Of a DNA stretch of 64,000 nucleotides, positions 11,115-36,574 are shown piece by piece. The number at the start of each line of letters is the position of its first letter. The first letter of the stretch is position 1. The stretch comes from Blastocatellia bacterium. Lineage in GTDB: Bacteria; Acidobacteriota; Blastocatellia; HR10. The notes beneath the pieces were generated by a model that saw only the letters and a program-made list of their open reading frames with translations, did no database searches and was not told the DNA's origin. Both the position numbers and the translations under genes were made by a program. The DNA is taken from NCBI GenBank assembly GCA_025055075.1, contig JANWYV010000053.1, forward strand, positions 62,001 through 126,000. The letters run 5' to 3'.

Positions 11115-11193
11115 GCGGCCGCGTGCCCGAAAGTCCAAGGCCTTGCGCCCGCGTGTTGGGCATGGTAAGGTCTATCGCTCCTTTGCTCAGACA

Positions 11194-12990
11194 ATGAGGC
11201 GGATTGGGTATATCGGCATTGGACTCCTGTTGTTCAGCTCGTGCGCGCGTCCGACTGCGTACTTTGGGAAGATCGAGCCTCCGAGTGAGGCCATCCTCCG
11301 CGTGGGGAACGGCGCTGATCCTGCATCGCTCGATCCGCATCGAGCGCCCGGCAGCGTCGAGGAGCAGATTTTGATCAATCTCTTCGAAGGCCTGACCGAG
11401 TACGATCCGGTGACATTGGATCCGATCCCTGCCGTCGCCGAGGCCTGGGAGGTGAACGAGCGAGCCACGCGCTTCCGTTTCCGTTTGCGCCGCTCGGCCC
11501 GTTGGAGCAACGGGCGTCCGGTGACGGCATGGGATTTCGTCTACTCTTGGCGCCGCGCCCTGGCTCCGGAAACGGCCTCACCGAATGCGTACTTGCTGTA
11601 CTACATCAGGAACGCCGAGGCCTATAATACGGGAAAAGTGAAAGTGCGCGATCGGCGAACGGGACGATTTCTCACCGATGCCCTTGGGCGCGAACTGATG
11701 CTCGCGCCGGAAGAGCTGGAGCGCATTCGGCGCGGAGATGTACCTCCCGAGGCGCGACATCTTCATGAATTGCGCCGTCGTTTGAGCGCTCACTCTTGGG
11801 AGGCGGTGACCTTGAGCGCGGCGGATGTCGGCGTACGCGCGCTCGATGACGTCACGCTCGAAGTGGAGATGGAGGCATCGACGGCCTTCTTTCTCAAGCT
11901 CACAGCTATCGGAGTCTACCGACCGGTCCCCCGAGAAGTGGTCGAGCGCTACGGACGCGCGTGGACGCGCCCCGAGCATATCGTGAGCAATGGCCCTTTT
12001 CGGCTCGTGGAGTTCACGCCGGGGCGGCGCGTCGTCCTGGAGAAGAATCCGCTCTATTGGGACGCTGCACGCGTGCGACTCCAACGCGCGATCTTCTATC
12101 CGTATGACGAAGCGACGACGCTTTTGAATCTCTACAAGGCGGGCGAGCTGGATGTGTTGGTGAGCGGGTTGCTGCCTCCATACGCGCTTCGGCGACTGCG
12201 TCAGAAGCAGGATTATGTCTCCGGCCCATACCTGCTCAGTTACTTCCTTTTGGTGAATGTGCGCCGTTCCCCATTGAGCGATCGGCGCGTGCGGCGGGCC
12301 TTAGCGCTCGCCATTGATCGAGAGCGTCTCTGTCGGCGATTGCTCGCGGCAGGACAGCAACCATCGGGCACTTTCACCCCCTCGGATTTCCAAGGCGCGT
12401 ATCCGCGCCCATCGGGGATCGGCTATGATCCGGAGCGCGCACGGCAGCTTCTAGCGGCCGCGGGATACCCTGAGGGACGCGGTCTTCGCTTTCGATTCCT
12501 CTACAACACGGGCGCGCTACACGCCCAGATTGCCGAGGCTCTGCAAGCTGATTGGCGACGCATCTTCCCCTTCATTCGCGTCGAGCTGGTCAATCAGGAG
12601 TGGCAGGTCTACTTGAATACCGTGCGGCTTGGAGAGTTCGATATCGCGCGACGGAGTTTCTCAGCCGATTTCAGCGATCCGACGAGTTTCCTCGATTCTA
12701 TGCTCTCGACGAGTCCGAACAACCCGACCGGTTGGGCGAATCCCGAGTACGATCGGCTCGTCCAACAGGCGAATGCGGAACCTGACGTCCGTCAGCGAAT
12801 GGCGCTGCTAGCCCGCGCTGAAGAAGTGTTGCTTGACGACCTGCCGATCATTCCGATCTACAGTTCGGTCACCAGCTTCCTTCTGAAGCCCTATGTTCGC
12901 GGATGGTACGCTAATGTTCTCGATCGGCATCCACTGAAATTCGTCGCTATTGAGCGCGGGGAGATCGCGCTCGGCCTCTCAGGGCGATAG
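11194..12990 (+). CDS. Peptide ABC transporter substrate-binding lipoprotein (OppA/DppA-like)
   Basis: A 598-residue family 5 extracellular solute-binding protein. The start at ATG 11194 gives a lipoprotein signal [17 protein letters not shown], with the lipobox Cys at residue 17 predicted to be acylated after cleavage. The mature domain has the family blocks [71 protein letters not shown] and the C-terminal [22 protein letters not shown] region. The layout matches OppA (oligopeptide binding) more than nickel or dipeptide variants. It is the first gene of a three-gene importer operon with two permeases. No OppD/OppF ATPases follow, so these must be supplied from another locus. Confidence 0.93.
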
Positions 12991-12994
12991 GGCG

Positions 12995-13927
12995 ATGGGG
13001 AGGTATATCCTCAAACGCATCTTTTGGGCCCTTCCGCTACTCTGGCTCATCCTCACGCTCACGTTCTTCTTGGTGCGGTGGGCGCCCGGGAAGCCATTTC
13101 GTCGGGAGCGCGCTGTGCCGGTGGAGATCGAAGCGCATCTGGATCGTCACTATGGCTTGGACAAGCCTTGGTACGTCCAGTATGCGAACTACATGCGCGG
13201 GCTCATACGGTTGGATTTCGGGCCTTCCTATCGCTATCCCGATGCGACAGTGGGCGAGATCATGCGCCAAGGGCTTCGCGTCTCGGTGCCCATTGGATTG
13301 GCGGCATATGCGCTGGCCCTTAGCCTCGGCTTGCCATTAGGCATTCTGGCGGCCCTCCGCCCCCAATCGGCAGGAGTGCGCGCGTTGATGGGCCTGGCCG
13401 TCTTAGGCGTGGTGACGCCGAATTTCGTGCTTGGACCTCTTTTGGTCCTTCTCTTCAGTTTGACGCTCTACTGGCTCCCGCCGGCGGGATGGGGCGAAGG
13501 GCGACATCTCGTGCTGCCCGTGGTGACGCTCTCGGCTGCTTACGTCGCCTATATCGCGCGCTTGACGCAAAGCGGTGTGCAGCAAGCGCTCGCCCAAGAC
13601 TACATCCGAACGGCTCATGCCAAAGGCATTCCTCCGCGTACGATCCTGCTGCGGCATGCATTGCGTCCAGCGCTTCTGCCTGTCCTTTCATTCACCGGTC
13701 CATCGCTGGCATTTCTTTTGGCGGGGACCGTCGTCATCGAGAGGATCTTCGCCATCCCCGGCCTCGGCCATTTCTTCGTTCAAGCGGCCTTCAATCGCGA
13801 TTACACGCTGATCTTGGGGATCGTCTCCTTCACGGCGATCGCCCTGATCGTCCTCAATCTGCTCGTGGACATTGCGATCGCCCTTTTGGATCCGCGCGTC
13901 GCTGTCGGGAGAGGAGGGGAGGCGTGA
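12995..13927 (+). CDS. Peptide ABC transporter permease, DppB/OppB type
   Basis: A 310-residue inner-membrane permease starting at ATG 12995, 4 nt after the stop of the binding-protein gene. The N-terminal MGRYILKRIFWALPLLWLILTLTFFLVRW is the standard DppB first helix, followed by a periplasmic stretch with APGKPF and YGLDKPWYVQY. The EAA loop that docks the ATPase is seen as YIRTAHAKGIPPRTILLRHALRPALLPVL. Five to six membrane segments are evident. It overlaps the next gene by 4 nt (GTGA). Confidence 0.94.
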   Translation: MGRYILKRIFWALPLLWLILTLTFFLVRWAPGKPFRRERAVPVEIEAHLDRHYGLDKPWYVQYANYMRGLIRLDFGPSYRYPDATVGEIMRQGLRVSVPIGLAAYALALSLGLPLGILAALRPQSAGVRALMGLAVLGVVTPNFVLGPLLVLLFSLTLYWLPPAGWGEGRHLVLPVVTLSAAYVAYIARLTQSGVQQALAQDYIRTAHAKGIPPRTILLRHALRPALLPVLSFTGPSLAFLLAGTVVIERIFAIPGLGHFFVQAAFNRDYTLILGIVSFTAIALIVLNLLVDIAIALLDPRVAVGRGGEA

Positions 13928-14874
13928 ACAGCGTGCGATCGGAAGGCGAGAAATCATCGGGGATGCAGATGTGGCGACTTTTCCGAGAACGTCCTTCGGC
14001 GCTCTTGGCTGCCGGGTTCCTCGGCCTTGTGGGCATCGCCGTCTTGATCGGCCCGATGTGGCTCACATACGGCTACGATCAAACGGATTTGGAGCTTGGG
14101 CTCTCACCGCCGAGTTGGGCGAACGGACATTACCTGGGGACGGACATCTTGGGGCGCGATCTGTTGGCTCGCCTTCTTCATGGCGGGCGCCTCTCTCTGC
14201 TGGTGGCCCTCGTCGCGACGGCGATCTCGACGACCATTGGCGTGGTCTACGGCGCCATCTCCGGATATTTCGGCGGGCGCGTGGACGAAGTGATGATGCG
14301 CGTCGTGGATGTCTTGTTTTCGCTCCCGTATCTGTTCTTGGTGCTCGTGCTGATGGCATTGTTCGCCGATCCAGAGGTCGTGGATCCGGTGATCTATCTC
14401 CTTCGGCTCCGTCCGGATGGAGCGATCGCCGAGTGGCTTCGAGGGCCGGGCGTCCGCTTGGTGTTGCTCTTTGCCGCCTTGGGGGCGGTCTCATGGCTGA
14501 CGTTGGCGCGCATCGTGCGCGGACATGTCCTGGCGCTTAAGAACGAGCCTTTCATCGAAGCAGCGCGCGCGGCGGGCGCAGGAACAGGGACGATCCTCAT
14601 TCGGCATCTCCTTCCGAACGCGAGCGGGCCGATCGTCGCATATACCGTGCTCACCATCCCCTCGGTCATGTTGCAAGAGGCCTTCATCAGCTTCCTCGGG
14701 TTGGGGCTTCAAGCACCGCAGGCGAGTTGGGGAGCGCTCGTCTACGAGGGCGTGCAAGCGATGAGCGTCGCACCATGGCTGCTTGTCTTCCCAGCGGGGA
14801 TCATGGTGCTCACCCTCGTCTGCTTCTACATCGTCGGCGAAGCCTTACGCGAAGCCTATGAGAAGCGTCCCTGA
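13924..14874 (+). CDS. Peptide ABC transporter permease, DppC/OppC type
   Basis: A 316-residue inner-membrane permease. GTG 13924 is chosen because it overlaps the upstream stop (GTGA) and is preceded by GGAGAGGAGGGGAGGC. The N-terminal cytoplasmic tail (RLFRERPSALLAAGFLGL) is OppC-like; HYLGTDILGRDLLARLLHGGRLSL and the EAA loop FIEAARAAGAGTGTILIRHLLPNASGPI are family hallmarks. The ~35-residue stretch around LLRLRPDGAIAEWLRGPG enlarges one loop relative to short DppC proteins but is common in OppC. The operon ends here without ATPase genes. Confidence 0.94.
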   Translation: MNSVRSEGEKSSGMQMWRLFRERPSALLAAGFLGLVGIAVLIGPMWLTYGYDQTDLELGLSPPSWANGHYLGTDILGRDLLARLLHGGRLSLLVALVATAISTTIGVVYGAISGYFGGRVDEVMMRVVDVLFSLPYLFLVLVLMALFADPEVVDPVIYLLRLRPDGAIAEWLRGPGVRLVLLFAALGAVSWLTLARIVRGHVLALKNEPFIEAARAAGAGTGTILIRHLLPNASGPIVAYTVLTIPSVMLQEAFISFLGLGLQAPQASWGALVYEGVQAMSVAPWLLVFPAGIMVLTLVCFYIVGEALREAYEKRP

Positions 14875-27282: not shown

Positions 27283-28566
27283 ATGCGGGTGCTGATCAAG
27301 TCTGGGATCATTGTGGATCCCTCCGAGCGCTTGGAGATGAAAGGGGATCTCCTCATCGAAGATGGAATCATCCGGGAGATCGCCCCAGAAATCTCAGTCC
27401 CCGACGCACAGGTCCTCGACGCGAGCGGATGCATCGTCGCCCCGGGATTCATTGATCTTCACGTCCATTTGCGCGAGCCCGGTCGCGAGGACGTCGAGAC
27501 CATTGAGACCGGCACGCAAGCGGCTGCAGCAGGAGGCTTCACCGCCGTCTGCGCGATGCCCAACACGCAGCCAGTCAACGATAATCGGGCCGTGACGCGC
27601 TTCATCCTCGAGCGAGCCCGTGAGGTCGGTGCCGTGCGCGTCTATCCCATTGGTGCTATCACACAGGGATCAAAGGGAGAAACTCTGGCCGAGATCGGCG
27701 AGATGCGGGAAGCCGGCATCGTCGCCATCAGCGACGATGGCCAACCCGTCATGAATGCTCAGATCCTACGTCGGGCCATGGAGTACGCTCGGCAGTTGGA
27801 TATCCCCGTCATTGATCACTGCGAGGACAAGCATCTCTCAGCCGGAGGCGTCATGAACGAGGGGTTGTGGTCCCTACGCCTTGGGTTGAAGGGGATTCCC
27901 GCCGCGGCCGAAGAGGTGCACGTGGCGCGAGATATCATCTTGGCCGAGCTGACGGGCGCTCATGTACATCTGGCCCATTTGAGCACCGCCTTCTCCATCG
28001 AGTTGGTGCGCCAAGCGAAACGTCGCGGCGTCCGAATCAGTTGCGAAGTCACGCCCCATCACTTCACCCTCACGGAAGAAGCGGTCTGCACCTACAATAC
28101 CAACGCCAAGATGAATCCCCCCTTACGAACGGAGCGAGATGTCCAAGCGATCCATGAGGCCCTCGCCGATGGAACCATTGACGCCATTGCGACGGATCAT
28201 GCCCCGCATCATCCCGATGAAAAAGCCCTCGAATTCGAGCGCGCCCCCTTCGGCGTCGTGGGGCTGGAGACGGCCGTCAGCCTCGCACTTGACCGCCTCG
28301 TCCATCGGGGCATCATCGGATGGATGCGCTTGGTGGAGCTCTTCTCGACAAATCCTGCCCGTATCATGAACCTCCCCGGGGGGACATTGAGGTCAGGCGC
28401 CACCGCCGATATCACCATCTTGGATCCGACGCGCCCGTTCATCGTCCGGGCTGAACAGTTTCGCTCGAAGGGCCGCAATACACCCTTTGAGGGATGGCAT
28501 CTCACCGGGACCATACGGGCAACCTTGGTCGCTGGTCGGGTGGTCTACCACGCGGACTTCCCATGA
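27283..28566 (+). CDS. pyrC: Dihydroorotase (class I)
   Basis: A 427-residue amidohydrolase that interconverts carbamoyl-aspartate and dihydroorotate. The metal-binding residues are intact: HVHLREPG near the N-terminus, the Asp in [20 protein letters not shown] and [11 protein letters not shown]. This makes it a catalytically competent class I enzyme rather than the inactive PyrC-like (PyrX) partner of ATCase. It is separate from pyrRB in the window (20 kb away) and lies convergent with the ECF sigma gene (13 bp). Confidence 0.95.
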
Positions 28567-28579
28567 GCCGATCGCGCAT

Positions 28580-29140
28580 TTAACGCCGCCGCTTCAAAAG
28601 CCGTCGGAGTCGCAGCCGCGCCTTGTGAAGCTGAGATTTCGTCGTCCCGACAGTGACCCCCAGCATTTGGGCGATCTCCTCGTGCCCGTAGCCTTCAATA
28701 TCGTGCAGCACCAAGATCGTCCGATAGCCGATGGGTAAGGCCATTAGCGCGCGCTCCAATGCAATACGGTCTACGATCTGAGACATCCCTTCATCGGCTC
28801 GGCGAGTCTCCAGGAGAGCCTTCACCTCGGTATCCTCCATCGGCTCGTAGCTCGGTCGTCGCCTCCGAAGATGCATCAGGACGAGGTTCGTCGTCAGCCG
28901 GTGCAACCACGTCGTGAAGGCTGCATCTCCTCGGAAACTCCCGATCTTTCGATAGAGGTGGAGGAAGACTTCCTGGGTCAAATCCTCCGCATCAGTAACG
29001 TTGCCAACAAGTCGCAGGCACAACGAATACACTCGCCGGTGGTACATTCGATAAATTCGCTCGAACGCTTCCATCTTCCCCTGGGCTGAAGCTCGAGCCA
29101 ATTCCAAATCTGACATAACCTGAGCCGCCGCCGTTGCCAT
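28580..29140 (-). CDS. RNA polymerase ECF sigma factor (RpoE/SigW type)
   Basis: A 186-residue extracytoplasmic-function sigma factor. Region 2 is RVYSLCLRLVGNVTDAEDLTQEVFLHLYRK and region 4 is LPIGYRTILVLHDIEGYGHEEIAQMLGVTVGTTKSQLHKARLRLRRLL, with no region 1.1 or 3, as expected. It has TTTAGGAGGGCGAAGG upstream of ATG 29140. No anti-sigma gene follows; pyrC converges 13 bp beyond. Upstream, on the same strand, are two tiny hydrophobic peptide genes and a strong hairpin. The sigma gene may therefore be read as the third gene of that unit. Confidence 0.9.
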   Translation of the reverse strand: MATAAAQVMSDLELARASAQGKMEAFERIYRMYHRRVYSLCLRLVGNVTDAEDLTQEVFLHLYRKIGSFRGDAAFTTWLHRLTTNLVLMHLRRRRPSYEPMEDTEVKALLETRRADEGMSQIVDRIALERALMALPIGYRTILVLHDIEGYGHEEIAQMLGVTVGTTKSQLHKARLRLRRLLKRRR

Positions 29141-29180
29141 ATCCCTTCGCCCTCCTAAATAGATTCTCTTGCTTGAAGGT

Positions 29181-29203
29181 GGGGACCTCCATCGGAGGTC
29201 CCC
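29181..29203 (-). other. Strong hairpin between peptide genes and ECF sigma gene
   Basis: A perfect 10-bp inverted repeat (GGGGACCTCC, loop of 3, GGAGGTCCCC) lies about 40 nt upstream of the sigma ATG. No U-run follows it on the minus strand, so a partial terminator, an mRNA stability element or an RNA-level switch is possible. A second stem (7 bp) lies upstream at 29227-29254, formed by GACGCTG and CAGCGTC. Confidence 0.5.
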
Positions 29204-29271
29204 GGAGGAGGTTTATGAAGAAGCTCGACGCTGTACGCGTCGGCACGCAGCGTCCTCAAATGAGAGACGCC

Positions 29272-29370
29272 CTACGGGATCGGACATTGTCCGGATCCCA
29301 ACAGCGCGGCCAACGCCAGCAGAGCCAAAAGGAGCGTTGCTAAGTCAAGTTGTCCGAATTGGGTCCGCAT
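29272..29370 (-). CDS. Small hydrophobic peptide of a twin family (copy 1)
   Basis: A 32-residue peptide encoded at 29272-29370, too short for usual gene finders. It consists of an N-terminal MRTQFGQLD, a leucine/alanine-rich segment (LATLLLALLALAALLG) long enough for a membrane helix, and a GSGQCPIP tail with one cysteine. AAAGGAGG lies 8 nt upstream of the ATG. It aligns with the neighbouring 36-residue peptide at 23 of 27 positions. I do not recognise the family; a small membrane peptide is likely. Confidence 0.72.
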   Translation of the reverse strand: MRTQFGQLDLATLLLALLALAALLGSGQCPIP

Positions 29371-29419
29371 AGTCTTTGCCTCCTTTCCTTAGAAAGTGTC
29401 ACGAGCCCATTGGGCCTCA

Positions 29420-29530
29420 TCATCGTGTCACTCCTGGGATGGGGCATGAGCCGCTTCCCAGAAGCTGCAAAGCAGCGAGCAACGCTAGAAGTAGCGTCGC
29501 CAGATCGAGCTGTCCATTCTCTCCTCTCAT
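29420..29530 (-). CDS. Small hydrophobic peptide of a twin family (copy 2)
   Basis: A 36-residue peptide: MRGENGQLD, hydrophobic LATLLLALLAALQLLG, then GSGSCPIP and a GVTR tail. It is preceded by GAAGGAGGAG 5 nt before the ATG and by a good promoter at 29572-29599. The aligned 27-residue core shares 23 residues with copy 1 while 18 of those 23 codons differ. This indicates old duplication and selection on the peptide sequence. Function unknown. Confidence 0.74.
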   Translation of the reverse strand: MRGENGQLDLATLLLALLAALQLLGSGSCPIPGVTR

Positions 29531-29571
29531 GCGCTCTCCTCCTTCGTTTCATTTTTTCAAACTGCACCCAT

Positions 29572-29599
29572 AGTATATCATACTTTCTCAGAAAGTCAA
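29572..29599 (-). promoter_or_regulatory. Promoter with operator-like inverted repeat, upstream of the twin peptide genes
   Basis: On the minus strand TTGACT (29594-29599), 16-nt spacer, TATACT (29572-29577). The spacer and -35 are overlapped by a perfect 7-bp inverted repeat with a 1-nt centre (ACTTTCT, AGAAAGT at 29582-29596), a position typical of a repressor operator. The expected leader to the peptide ATG at 29530 is about 35 nt. Confidence 0.68.
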
Positions 29600-29690
29600 G
29601 ATGTAAAATTTAATCAAGCCATAGTAAATTATATTTAACAAACCTTGACACGGGAATCGAGCTTATACGAGGGATGACGATGGGCGCATC

Positions 29691-29719
29691 TTGACAGTAA
29701 GACACGCAGATTATATAAT
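29691..29719 (+). promoter_or_regulatory. groESL promoter
   Basis: Exact consensus TTGACA (29691-29696), 17-nt spacer, TATAAT (29714-29719). No CIRCE repeat and no sigma-32-like promoter were seen near it. The leader to groES ATG 29772 would be about 46 nt. Confidence 0.8.
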
Positions 29720-33988: not shown

Positions 33989-34017
33989 TTGCCTGCACCT
34001 GGGGGCGTTGATACAAT
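33989..34017 (+). promoter_or_regulatory. Promoter of the Wzz/BY-kinase gene
   Basis: TTGCCT (33989-33994), 17-nt spacer, TACAAT (34012-34017), a reasonable sigma-70 promoter. The transcript would start near 34024, which rules out the upstream in-frame start codon at 33989 and leaves a short leader. Confidence 0.5.
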
Positions 34018-34033
34018 TCCCCCTGTGTCGGGA

Positions 34034-36574
34034 ATGGAGAAGCTCGGCGAGAGCGTAGATTATCGCTATTATCTCGACCTCCTTCGTCGAGGCAAGTGGA
34101 CGATTCTGGCATCGGCCCTGCTGTGTCTTGGTCTCGCCTTCCTCTCGGGATTTTTGCGGACGCCGCTCTATCAAGCGCAGGCAACGGTATCGGTCGAACT
34201 TCCTCCGGCGCCGGTTGACCCTACGCAAGCTCTGATGGCCCCACAGTACAATAGCTACTTCGACTACGAGTACTACTTTCAGACGCAGCTTCGCATTCTC
34301 TCCGGCAATACGCTAGCGCTGCGCGCCGCCGATGCGCTCGCGCGGTTGCCGCAGTATCAAGGGCGGCGGCGAGAGGAGCTAGCGGCGGAGCTTCAAGCTT
34401 CGGTCACGCCACGCCAGGTGGAGAACACGCGGATCATCGCCATCGCCGTGACGCGTGAATCGCCGGAGGAGGCGGCCTTGTGGGCGAACACAATCGCTGA
34501 AACATACATTGAGGCCAATCTCGAGGAGCGGAAGAAGAGCTTTCAGGAGACGATCGCCGCCTTGAAAGCTCTGCTCGAGCGAGCGGAAGCGAACCAGGCG
34601 CAAGTGATCGAGCGATTGCAACAGGTCGCTTGGGAGTTCGGCCTTGTCCCGACCGAGGCGACCGGAGGGAAAGTCGATACCAGTGCCCTAGAGGCGGCGA
34701 CGCGGATTCTCTCAGAGGCGCAGCGGGAGCGACAGCAAGCTGAAGCGCGATATCAGCAGGCCTTGGCGGCGCGGGAGACTCCTCAACGTATCGCCGCTTT
34801 GCTCTCCGGTCCGAACGAACTCAGCGGACTTCTGGAGCGAAAGGCAGCACTAGAGCGGGAGCTGCGCGAATTGGAGCGAAGAGGATTCCTGGAACGGAAC
34901 CCGCGCGTCGTTCAGCTCCGCGCGCAGTTGAGCGCGTTAGAGGAGCAGATCGCGCGAGCGACTGATGCCGCTTTGGAAGCACTCCGAAACGAGTTGGAGG
35001 TAGCCCGTCAAAAAGAGGCAGAGGCCCGACGCGCGCGCGATCTCGAGCAACGGCGCGTGCAAAGTGCCAGCACCGACCCACGGTTCCTCGATCAAATCCT
35101 ACAGCAAGCGATCACTTCGGAAATCGCGCGTGAGCTGAAGCAGACGTTGAACCGCGTCGAGTTAGGGGGACAGCTCCTTCGCAATAACATCGCCCTCGTG
35201 GATCGCGCCATACCGCCGCGAGTCCCGCTCAATCGTCAAAGCCCGCGCGTCTTGCTGTTGGGGCTGCTCGGCGGACTCGTGCTCGGCGTGGGGATTGTGC
35301 TCGCCAAGGACTTCATGGATCCCACGATTCGAGATTCGGAGGAGATCGAGCGGCTTCTGGAACGGCCCGTGCTCGGAGAGATCCCCCATTCCGCCCGCAC
35401 GGAGGAATTCGCTTGGCGCGAGGCCTTTCATGAGTTATGGACGAATCTCAAGCTTTTCCATCGCGGGCTCTCAGCGCCTGCGATTTTGATCACCAGCTCG
35501 GCGATGGAGGAGGGCAAGACGGCGGTCGCGTGCGAATTGGCGCGAACGGCAGCGGCGCTTGGCGCGCGCACGGTCCTTGTGGATTTGGACCTGCGTCGTC
35601 CGGATGTGCATCGTCGGTTCCCCGGACTCAAGCGTCGGGGACCCCAGCTTGGGGCCGTCTTGATCGTTGATGATGAGCCGGCGATGCGGCAGCTTCTCGC
35701 AGAAGGACTTGTGCTCCTTCAGCGTCGCGGGATCGGAAATGGATGGACGCTCGGCCCGCTTTTGATGGCGAAAGATGGAGAGGAAGCGCTGGCGAAAGTT
35801 CGCGACAATGAGGTCGCGGTTGCCATCGTGGACATCAAGTTGCCGGGGATGGATGGCACCGAGCTGCTGGAACGCATCAAGGGATTGAGCCCGCAGACGG
35901 AAGTCGTGATGATCACGGGACACGCGTGCTTGGAGACGGCCATCGAGGCCGTTCGTCAGGGGGCTGCCGATTATCTCACAAAGCCATTCGACATAGATGC
36001 CTTACGGGAAGCGGTCGAACGCGCGTTGCAGAAGCGCGTGCGACGAACTTTTCCGCCTTCGCCTCCGGAGGACAATGGGATCGTAGCTTATCTGACGGGC
36101 GAAGCCGAACTATCGGCGCTTATCTGCGAGACCGATGTGCCGAACCTGTATGTCATCCCTGTCGGTCGTCCTCCGCAAAACCCGTTCCTATTGCTCGATC
36201 GGACGATCTTGCAAGAGTTGGTCCGGGGACTTAAGGCGCAATTCGAGTGGATCGTCATTGATTCCCCACCGCTCACCGCGGTGAGCGATCCTATGGTGAT
36301 CGCCTCCGTCGTGGATGGGGTCCTTTTCGTCGTTCGGTTCAATCACACGGATCGAAAGGTCGTACGGCGAGCCATGCAGCGGCTCACGCGGGCGGGCGTC
36401 CACATCTGGGGCGTGATCTTCAACGCCATTCGCCCAGAGGAGAGCCGATACGAGCGCTACTATTCCCGCTACGAGTATCATCCGCGCGAAGAAGGGGAAT
36501 TGAGGAAGCCAGCGTGGCGTCAAGGGGTGGAGAGGATCTGGGCCGTTCGGCGAAAATGGCGCGCAGGGGGGTGA
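34034..36574 (+). CDS. Wzz/BY-kinase polysaccharide co-polymerase with an inserted response-regulator receiver domain
   Basis: An 846-residue inner-membrane protein (start ATG 34034). Residues are numbered from this Met. Domain order: Wzz N-terminal domain with a membrane helix near residues 23-41; a long coiled-coil periplasmic region (about 160-375); a GNVR/second helix (about 405-425); then a BY-type tyrosine kinase. The kinase has Walker A SSAMEEGKT (about 488-496), Walker A' VLVDLDLRRP (514-523), Walker B WIVIDSPP (739-746) and a C-terminal tyrosine cluster (YERYYSRYEY). Between A' and the GIVAYLTGEAELS block sits a complete receiver domain at about 541-667, with acidic pair D546/D547, phosphoacceptor D600, T628 and K650. 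This replaces only the short loop normally present there. It probably controls exopolysaccharide chain length and export. The insert suggests control by a histidine kinase (inference). Confidence 0.9.
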   Translation: MEKLGESVDYRYYLDLLRRGKWTILASALLCLGLAFLSGFLRTPLYQAQATVSVELPPAPVDPTQALMAPQYNSYFDYEYYFQTQLRILSGNTLALRAADALARLPQYQGRRREELAAELQASVTPRQVENTRIIAIAVTRESPEEAALWANTIAETYIEANLEERKKSFQETIAALKALLERAEANQAQVIERLQQVAWEFGLVPTEATGGKVDTSALEAATRILSEAQRERQQAEARYQQALAARETPQRIAALLSGPNELSGLLERKAALERELRELERRGFLERNPRVVQLRAQLSALEEQIARATDAALEALRNELEVARQKEAEARRARDLEQRRVQSASTDPRFLDQILQQAITSEIARELKQTLNRVELGGQLLRNNIALVDRAIPPRVPLNRQSPRVLLLGLLGGLVLGVGIVLAKDFMDPTIRDSEEIERLLERPVLGEIPHSARTEEFAWREAFHELWTNLKLFHRGLSAPAILITSSAMEEGKTAVACELARTAAALGARTVLVDLDLRRPDVHRRFPGLKRRGPQLGAVLIVDDEPAMRQLLAEGLVLLQRRGIGNGWTLGPLLMAKDGEEALAKVRDNEVAVAIVDIKLPGMDGTELLERIKGLSPQTEVVMITGHACLETAIEAVRQGAADYLTKPFDIDALREAVERALQKRVRRTFPPSPPEDNGIVAYLTGEAELSALICETDVPNLYVIPVGRPPQNPFLLLDRTILQELVRGLKAQFEWIVIDSPPLTAVSDPMVIASVVDGVLFVVRFNHTDRKVVRRAMQRLTRAGVHIWGVIFNAIRPEESRYERYYSRYEYHPREEGELRKPAWRQGVERIWAVRRKWRAGG

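Follow-up and report, generated by a model that had tools for sequence, protein, structure and literature searches.

A conserved operon of small hydrophobic peptides and an ECF sigma factor in Blastocatellia, with a candidate TPR-HTH regulator and octapeptide ligand

Gene content and conservation of the peptide-sigma unit

The window, by which we mean the whole 64,000-nucleotide stretch of DNA that was analyzed, comes from a Blastocatellia genome of 3.0 Mb that is 98.8% complete. It belongs to the HR10 lineage, and we take the habitat of the HR bins (HR08 and HR10) to be hot springs. On the minus strand, a σ70-type promoter is followed by two genes for short hydrophobic peptides (P1 and P2), a structured leader, and a gene for an ECF sigma factor. 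These elements are co-directional and lie where the first-pass annotation had placed them (Table 1), and P1 and P2 each have a Shine-Dalgarno sequence of their own.

Table 1. Window coordinates of the peptide-sigma unit and of other genes discussed in the text
Feature	Position	Strand	Remarks
oppA-oppB-oppC-like genes	11143-14874	+	Binding-protein gene at 11143-12990, then oppB/oppC-like genes
pyrC	27283-28566	+	Convergent; bounds the unit; ends 13 bp from the ECF sigma gene
ECF sigma gene, 186 aa	28580-29140	-	Regions 2 and 4; DAED kept; no adjoining anti-sigma gene
GC-rich hairpin, GGGGACCTCC-GAT-GGAGGTCCCC	29181-29203	-	In the leader; not a terminator
Anti-Shine-Dalgarno, CCTCCT	29206-29211	-	Can pair with the sigma ribosome-binding site AGGAGG at 29156-29151
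Peptide P2, 32 aa, MRTQFGQLDLATLLLALLALAALLGSGQCPIP	29272-29370	-	Paralogue of P1 (78% identity); pN/pS 0.22
Peptide P1, 36 aa, MRGENGQLDLATLLLALLAALQLLGSGSCPIPGVTR	29420-29530	-	Kept in genus, family, and order; pN/pS 0.28
σ70-type promoter, TTGACT-16-TATACT	29572-29599	-	10/12 matches; extended TG; 15-bp palindrome ACTTTCTGAGAAAGT overlaps the spacer
AT-rich element, ATTAAATTTTACATC	29600-29614	-	Adjoins the -35 upstream; candidate regulator site or UP element

P1 and P2 are paralogous members of a single peptide family, which is found in longer tandem arrays elsewhere. Their pairing exceeds chance, since they are the only similar same-strand pair lying within 1 kb of each other among the 587 window open reading frames of 25 to 100 amino acids (E = 1.6e-13). 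Judged by their pN/pS values (Table 1), summed over pairs, both peptides are very probably translated and constrained. In each of the genus's four other species, the sigma orthologue is preceded by orthologues of both, and the peptide family also precedes it in other genera and in one other taxonomic family. Credible members occur in 10 of the 162 genomes of the class, every one within the window's order, with two copies in the window's genus, three in genome G005, five in G006, and one each in G007, G008, and G009.

The comparison of sigma gene neighborhoods that the first-pass annotation had proposed found the sigma gene next after the peptides in 9 of the 10 peptide-bearing genomes. The exception is G007, where a peptide lies at the pyrC locus with no sigma gene between the two. 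The order of promoter, peptide(s), hairpin, and sigma gene is kept in nine genomes that span four genera and two families, and pyrC is the neighbor across the window's genus and in G005 and G007. We are nearly certain from this gene order that the peptides, the hairpin, and the sigma gene make up a real conserved co-directional unit. The sample consists of 10 genomes, mostly MAGs, from one order, and co-occurrence within it therefore counts as few independent events.

The peptides are 32 to 37 residues long, with one to five paralogous copies per operon. A usually basic N terminus is followed by GQxD, a hydrophobic span of about 17 to 20 residues, and a short C-terminal tail that starts at an invariant cysteine, usually with a proline after it. 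The motifs G-Q-x-D before the span and G-x-C after it are invariant or near-invariant. The span and the basic residues that precede it suggest, from composition, that the peptides are most likely single-pass, N-in proteins of the inner membrane. There was no accepted match to the peptides in Pfam, NCBIfam, or PHROG. A RiPP or methanobactin-like precursor was rejected on that ground and because none of the locus copies whose surroundings were read had modifying enzymes beside it. Weak matches in the rest of the class and phylum (E values of 0.004 to 0.08) were dismissed as chance, being short pieces that mostly fall within larger open frames; the five weak matches left over from the first class-wide peptide search are likewise short pieces.

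As a separate observation on the window, the plus-strand gene at 33989-36574 encodes a Wzc/CpsD-like protein in which a response-regulator receiver domain (motifs VLIVDDEP...VDIKLPGMDG...TKPFD) is, as judged by eye, apparently inserted inside the BY-kinase domain.

Sigma factor, promoter, and leader

The sigma protein contains Sigma70_r2 (PF04542, 8e-21) and Sigma70_r4_2 (PF08281, 3e-17) domains and scores above the cut-off of TIGR02937. Regions 2 and 4 are present and regions 1.1 and 3 are missing, as expected of an ECF (group IV σ70) factor. The DAED motif of region σ2.2, which serves in binding core RNA polymerase and whose loss marks ECF43 (PMC8999054), is intact (NVTDAEDLTQ). The first-pass annotation had drawn attention to the lack of a downstream anti-sigma gene, with the convergent pyrC so close by, and this is borne out: none of the nine peptide-linked sigma loci has a zinc-finger anti-sigma gene downstream. 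Among 24 homologous sigma loci, such a gene lies just downstream in 18, and a hydrophobic peptide lies upstream in none. The absence is real but by itself ordinary, because an anti-sigma gene is likewise missing from several related sigma subfamilies of these genomes, and ECF sigma factors under purely transcriptional control, through their own synthesis, are an accepted class (PMC8999054). In a phylogenetic tree, the nine peptide-linked sigma factors fall into two well-supported groups, one per family, and an AU test does not reject a single clade (p = 0.51). Together, the intact DAED motif and the absence of an anti-sigma gene suggest that the sigma factor would probably be active once made, autonomously and with no anti-sigma partner, and that the operon would be controlled at its promoter.

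That promoter follows the pattern TTGAC(A/T)-16-TATAC(T/A), with the same 16-bp spacer in all nine peptide-sigma loci, and its -35 element sits at roughly -65 to -72 relative to the first start codon. The palindrome in the spacer was discarded as a general operator, being perfect in the window's genome only and imperfect or lost in the others. An element similar to the AT-rich sequence of Table 1 (TTAA-TTTT) lies beside the -35 in eight of the nine genomes, representing two families, and is absent in G008; it has been kept while much of the intergenic region diverged. Genome-wide, the AT-rich element gave one exact match, and a wider regulon acting through it was rejected, as there was just one other weak match. 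The divergent neighbor of the peptide promoter is groES in the window's genus only, and the groES promoter itself (29691-29719, plus strand) is a perfect TTGACA-17-TATAAT match.

The leader between the peptides and the sigma gene is 131 nucleotides long in the window, and in all nine genomes it folds 2.0 to 4.5 standard deviations below shuffled sequences. CCTCCT pairs with AGGAGG across the hairpin in the window, where the pairing is part of the minimum-energy fold, and in two relatives; G002 and G004 fold differently. Both sides of this pairing are unchanged in all five members of the genus, so covariation is uninformative for it. The hairpin itself has undergone one two-sided and one one-sided change within the genus, with pairing kept, and G005, G006, G008, and G009 have a strong leader hairpin made from quite different sequences. 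An intrinsic terminator or attenuator was dismissed for want of a U-run or any terminator-like site at the hairpin, as was a known riboswitch or thermometer, since there was no Rfam match in the window. The natural reading is that the leader hides the sigma ribosome-binding site and that sigma output would be lower than peptide output. Just before the hairpin, the noncoding sequence AGCTTCTTCATA (29210-29225, minus strand) is shared without change by six genomes from two genera, and could be a small-RNA target or an alternative pairing partner of the sigma ribosome-binding site.

A candidate TPR-HTH regulator and an exported repeat protein

The first-pass annotation had named the two peptides as the only other genes next to the sigma gene. 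The peptide-sigma unit stands, but there is a probable third partner, consisting of a TPR-HTH protein and an exported repeat protein. Each of the five genomes from outside the genus of the window (G005 to G009) has, divergent to its peptide gene or genes, a gene for a TPR protein whose C-terminal HTH shows weak Fis/HTH_8 similarity. In the window's genus, the orthologue lies on another contig (G000:C9:26280-27689), and the proteins of genus members show 64 to 68% identity to that of G005. G007 keeps both the TPR-HTH regulator and a peptide at its pyrC locus. Directly downstream of the TPR-HTH gene, all 10 genomes have a gene for an exported protein of about 110 amino acids (105 to 126) with a signal-peptide-like N terminus, and this adjoining pair is present in the same 10 genomes as the peptides. 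The pair can be seen at L112:6269-8074 (G000:C9), as well as at loci L055, L056, L057, L110, L111, and L113 to L116. Confident homologues of the exported protein were found only in these 10 of the 162 genomes, and Pfam gave no match for the four exported proteins examined.

In 9 of the 10 genomes, the exported protein contains two copies of an octapeptide with the sequence GVTAGG(R/K)P, GQTHGGRP, REGHTGRP, or RESHAG(R/K)P; in G007 there is a single copy. Of the two copies, the first lies at the predicted mature N terminus, and the second starts 18 to 19 residues later. Within a protein, the two copies match except for, at most, one R/K exchange, yet 4 to 9 of their 24 nucleotides differ, which argues for selection on the peptide and not on the DNA. 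Exact repeats as long arose in 0 to 11 of 3,000 shuffled mature parts. The octapeptide differs between genera, with both copies changing together, and this is the pattern expected of a receptor-matched ligand. The neighborhoods read for other TPR-HTH paralogues contained no repeat protein downstream. We also considered whether other TPR-HTH paralogues have peptide arrays of their own, and none is divergent from those checked.

Modeled with AlphaFold2 (pLDDT 88.7), the TPR-HTH protein gave its best structural alignment with the phage phi3T Rap protein in complex with RGHTS (Z 29.4, rmsd 4.1, 345 residues), followed by Rap with competence and sporulation factor (Z 29.3); NprR scored 27.1. The TPR folds of LGN (Z 28.1) and MalT (Z 26.1) come close behind Rap, and because they do, the fold alone does not establish pheromone binding; the predicted fold permits peptide binding and does not prove it. 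The genome encodes two oligopeptide-binding proteins of the Opp type (SBP_bac_5), one of them in the window, and the oppA-oppB-oppC-like transporter of the window is a possible importer of the octapeptide. We consider it reasonably likely, from gene order, that the TPR-HTH protein controls the peptide-sigma operon, although no binding site common to that operon and the promoter of the TPR-HTH gene itself was identified and the two loci are physically separate in the window's own genus. As to whether the exported octapeptide is the ligand of the TPR-HTH protein, we judge the chances to be evenly balanced.

Proposed function, alternatives, and comparison with known systems

The picture that we propose is of a single operon, running from a σ70-type promoter through paralogous peptides (two here) to the ECF sigma gene, that would be the output of the TPR-HTH regulator. 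An octapeptide would come from the exported protein, presumably re-imported by the Opp transporter, and bound by the TPR-Fis-HTH regulator, which would act on the shared intergenic region. The operon would then switch, giving membrane peptides at a high level and the sigma factor at a low one, the hairpin leader lowering the latter by hiding its ribosome-binding site. The sigma factor, controlled by its synthesis, would turn on a further regulon, and the peptides would be co-regulated membrane effectors rather than regulators of the sigma factor. We give this model as a whole a probability of roughly 0.45. The function of the peptides is held with lower confidence than either the regulator link or the octapeptide ligand.

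Other functions can be imagined for the peptides. The first-pass annotation had suggested that they might regulate the sigma factor, and as small membrane proteins that replaced a lost zinc-finger anti-sigma factor they would tether or titrate it and release it upon envelope stress. Such a role would fit their position beside the sigma gene in 9 of the 10 genomes and the frequency of zinc-finger anti-sigma genes among relatives of the peptide-linked sigma factors. However, the predicted cytoplasmic part of the peptides amounts to only about 5 to 10 residues, G007 keeps its peptide and the regulator with no sigma gene in between peptide and pyrC, and other related sigma factors that lack anti-sigma genes also lack such peptides. 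Tandem growth to five copies moreover suggests a matter of dosage or product and not a stoichiometric partner, and we find sigma regulation unlikely. The Cys-Pro tails might alternatively be the signal, released or lipidated and then sensed, and the array would then serve as a pheromone cassette that supplies the divergent TPR regulator. The copies in G006 are nearly constant over their first 28 or so residues and vary in their tails, and 15 of the 21 peptides fit the looser PROSITE lipoprotein rule; the strict lipobox [LVI][ASTVI][GAS]C, however, is found in none of the 21. Tails such as CPIPGISQ, CPISF, and CPPVQ occur in the family, but the P2 tail in the window's genus is just CPIP, CPTP, or CPMP, and the exported octapeptide protein beside the TPR gene is a better candidate for the ligand. 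A signal in the tails seems to us quite improbable.

A toxin-like function, in the style of type I systems such as the tandem Ldr and Ibs loci, or an antimicrobial one would have the sigma factor switch on a protective response. In size and tandem arrangement, the peptides do resemble short hydrophobic type I toxins, a class that has been reviewed (PMC8309996), and a hairpin leader ahead of the sigma gene would suit such a scheme. Against it, no antisense RNA was identified, the window having no Rfam match and the plus strand of the promoter region having one weak promoter-like site, and the invariant GQxD and cysteine are more specific than is usual for such toxins. The obligate link to an ECF sigma factor and a TPR regulator also speaks against a toxin; to our knowledge, no such obligate linkage is known for type I loci. 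We regard this explanation as unlikely too, and prefer to see the peptides as membrane effectors expressed together with the sigma factor.

Many ECF sigma factors lack an anti-sigma gene and have unexplained control. For those described here, the conserved gene order across families names a candidate controller and a candidate ligand of known sequence, and so makes the question testable. At its fullest, the reading would describe a three-part system of thermophilic Acidobacteriota, comprising a secreted protein with two octapeptide pheromones, a TPR-Fis-HTH receptor with an independent arrangement of domains, and, divergent to it, an output operon of membrane peptides and an autonomous ECF sigma factor; we offer this tentatively, and with more doubt than the model itself. 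If proven, it would be a peptide-signaling system new for Acidobacteriota, and it would give a context to a family of tandem membrane peptides that had not been described before. Our search of the open-access literature found no published account of the peptide family or of the whole module, nothing relevant on peptide-linked ECF sigma factors or TPR peptide signaling in Acidobacteriota, and no Rap/NprR-like pathway outside Bacillota that controls a sigma factor.

The closest relatives of the peptide-linked sigma factors, at about 53 to 62% identity, are the zinc-finger anti-sigma (ZAS)-linked ECF sigma factors of the same class, from which they differ in having no anti-sigma gene downstream and in having peptides upstream. 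The arrays of paralogous short hydrophobic peptides recall the tandem Ldr and Ibs loci; unlike those, they are polycistronic with an ECF sigma gene, have the conserved GQxD and cysteine, and come with no identified antisense RNA. Among ECF sigma factors with no anti-sigma factor and under transcriptional control, HrpL/ECF32 and SigQ are known examples (PMC8999054). The present sigma factor is like them in its intact σ2.2 DAED motif, in its lack of an anti-sigma gene, and in having, in relatives of the window, a separate regulator gene nearby. It is unlike them in that the proposed controller is a TPR-Fis-HTH protein, in place of a two-component system or a second sigma factor, and in the membrane-peptide array that precedes it in the same operon.

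In RRNPPA receptors such as NprR, PlcR, and Rgg, any HTH precedes the TPR domain. The protein described here has a Fis-like HTH at its C terminus and its peptide binding is putative, and for these reasons we do not class it as an RRNPPA receptor. The exported protein differs as well, with its length of about 110 amino acids, its hydrophobic C terminus, and its occurrence in the phylum Acidobacteriota. The likeness lies elsewhere. RRNPPA quorum sensing pairs Rap, NprR, or PlcR with Phr-type propeptides (PMC9765709), and duplicated pheromones are known in such systems (PMC11343458). Here, too, a TPR receptor-like gene adjoins, in all 10 genomes, a gene for an exported propeptide-like protein with an 8-residue motif that is doubled in most of them, and the predicted TPR fold aligns best with Rap, with LGN, NprR, and MalT scoring nearly as high. 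One of the octapeptides, REGHTGRP, recalls the Rap-phi3T pheromone SRGHTS. If the proposed model is true, the sensing of peptides in the cytoplasm by TPR proteins would reach into a phylum of the Gram-negative type.
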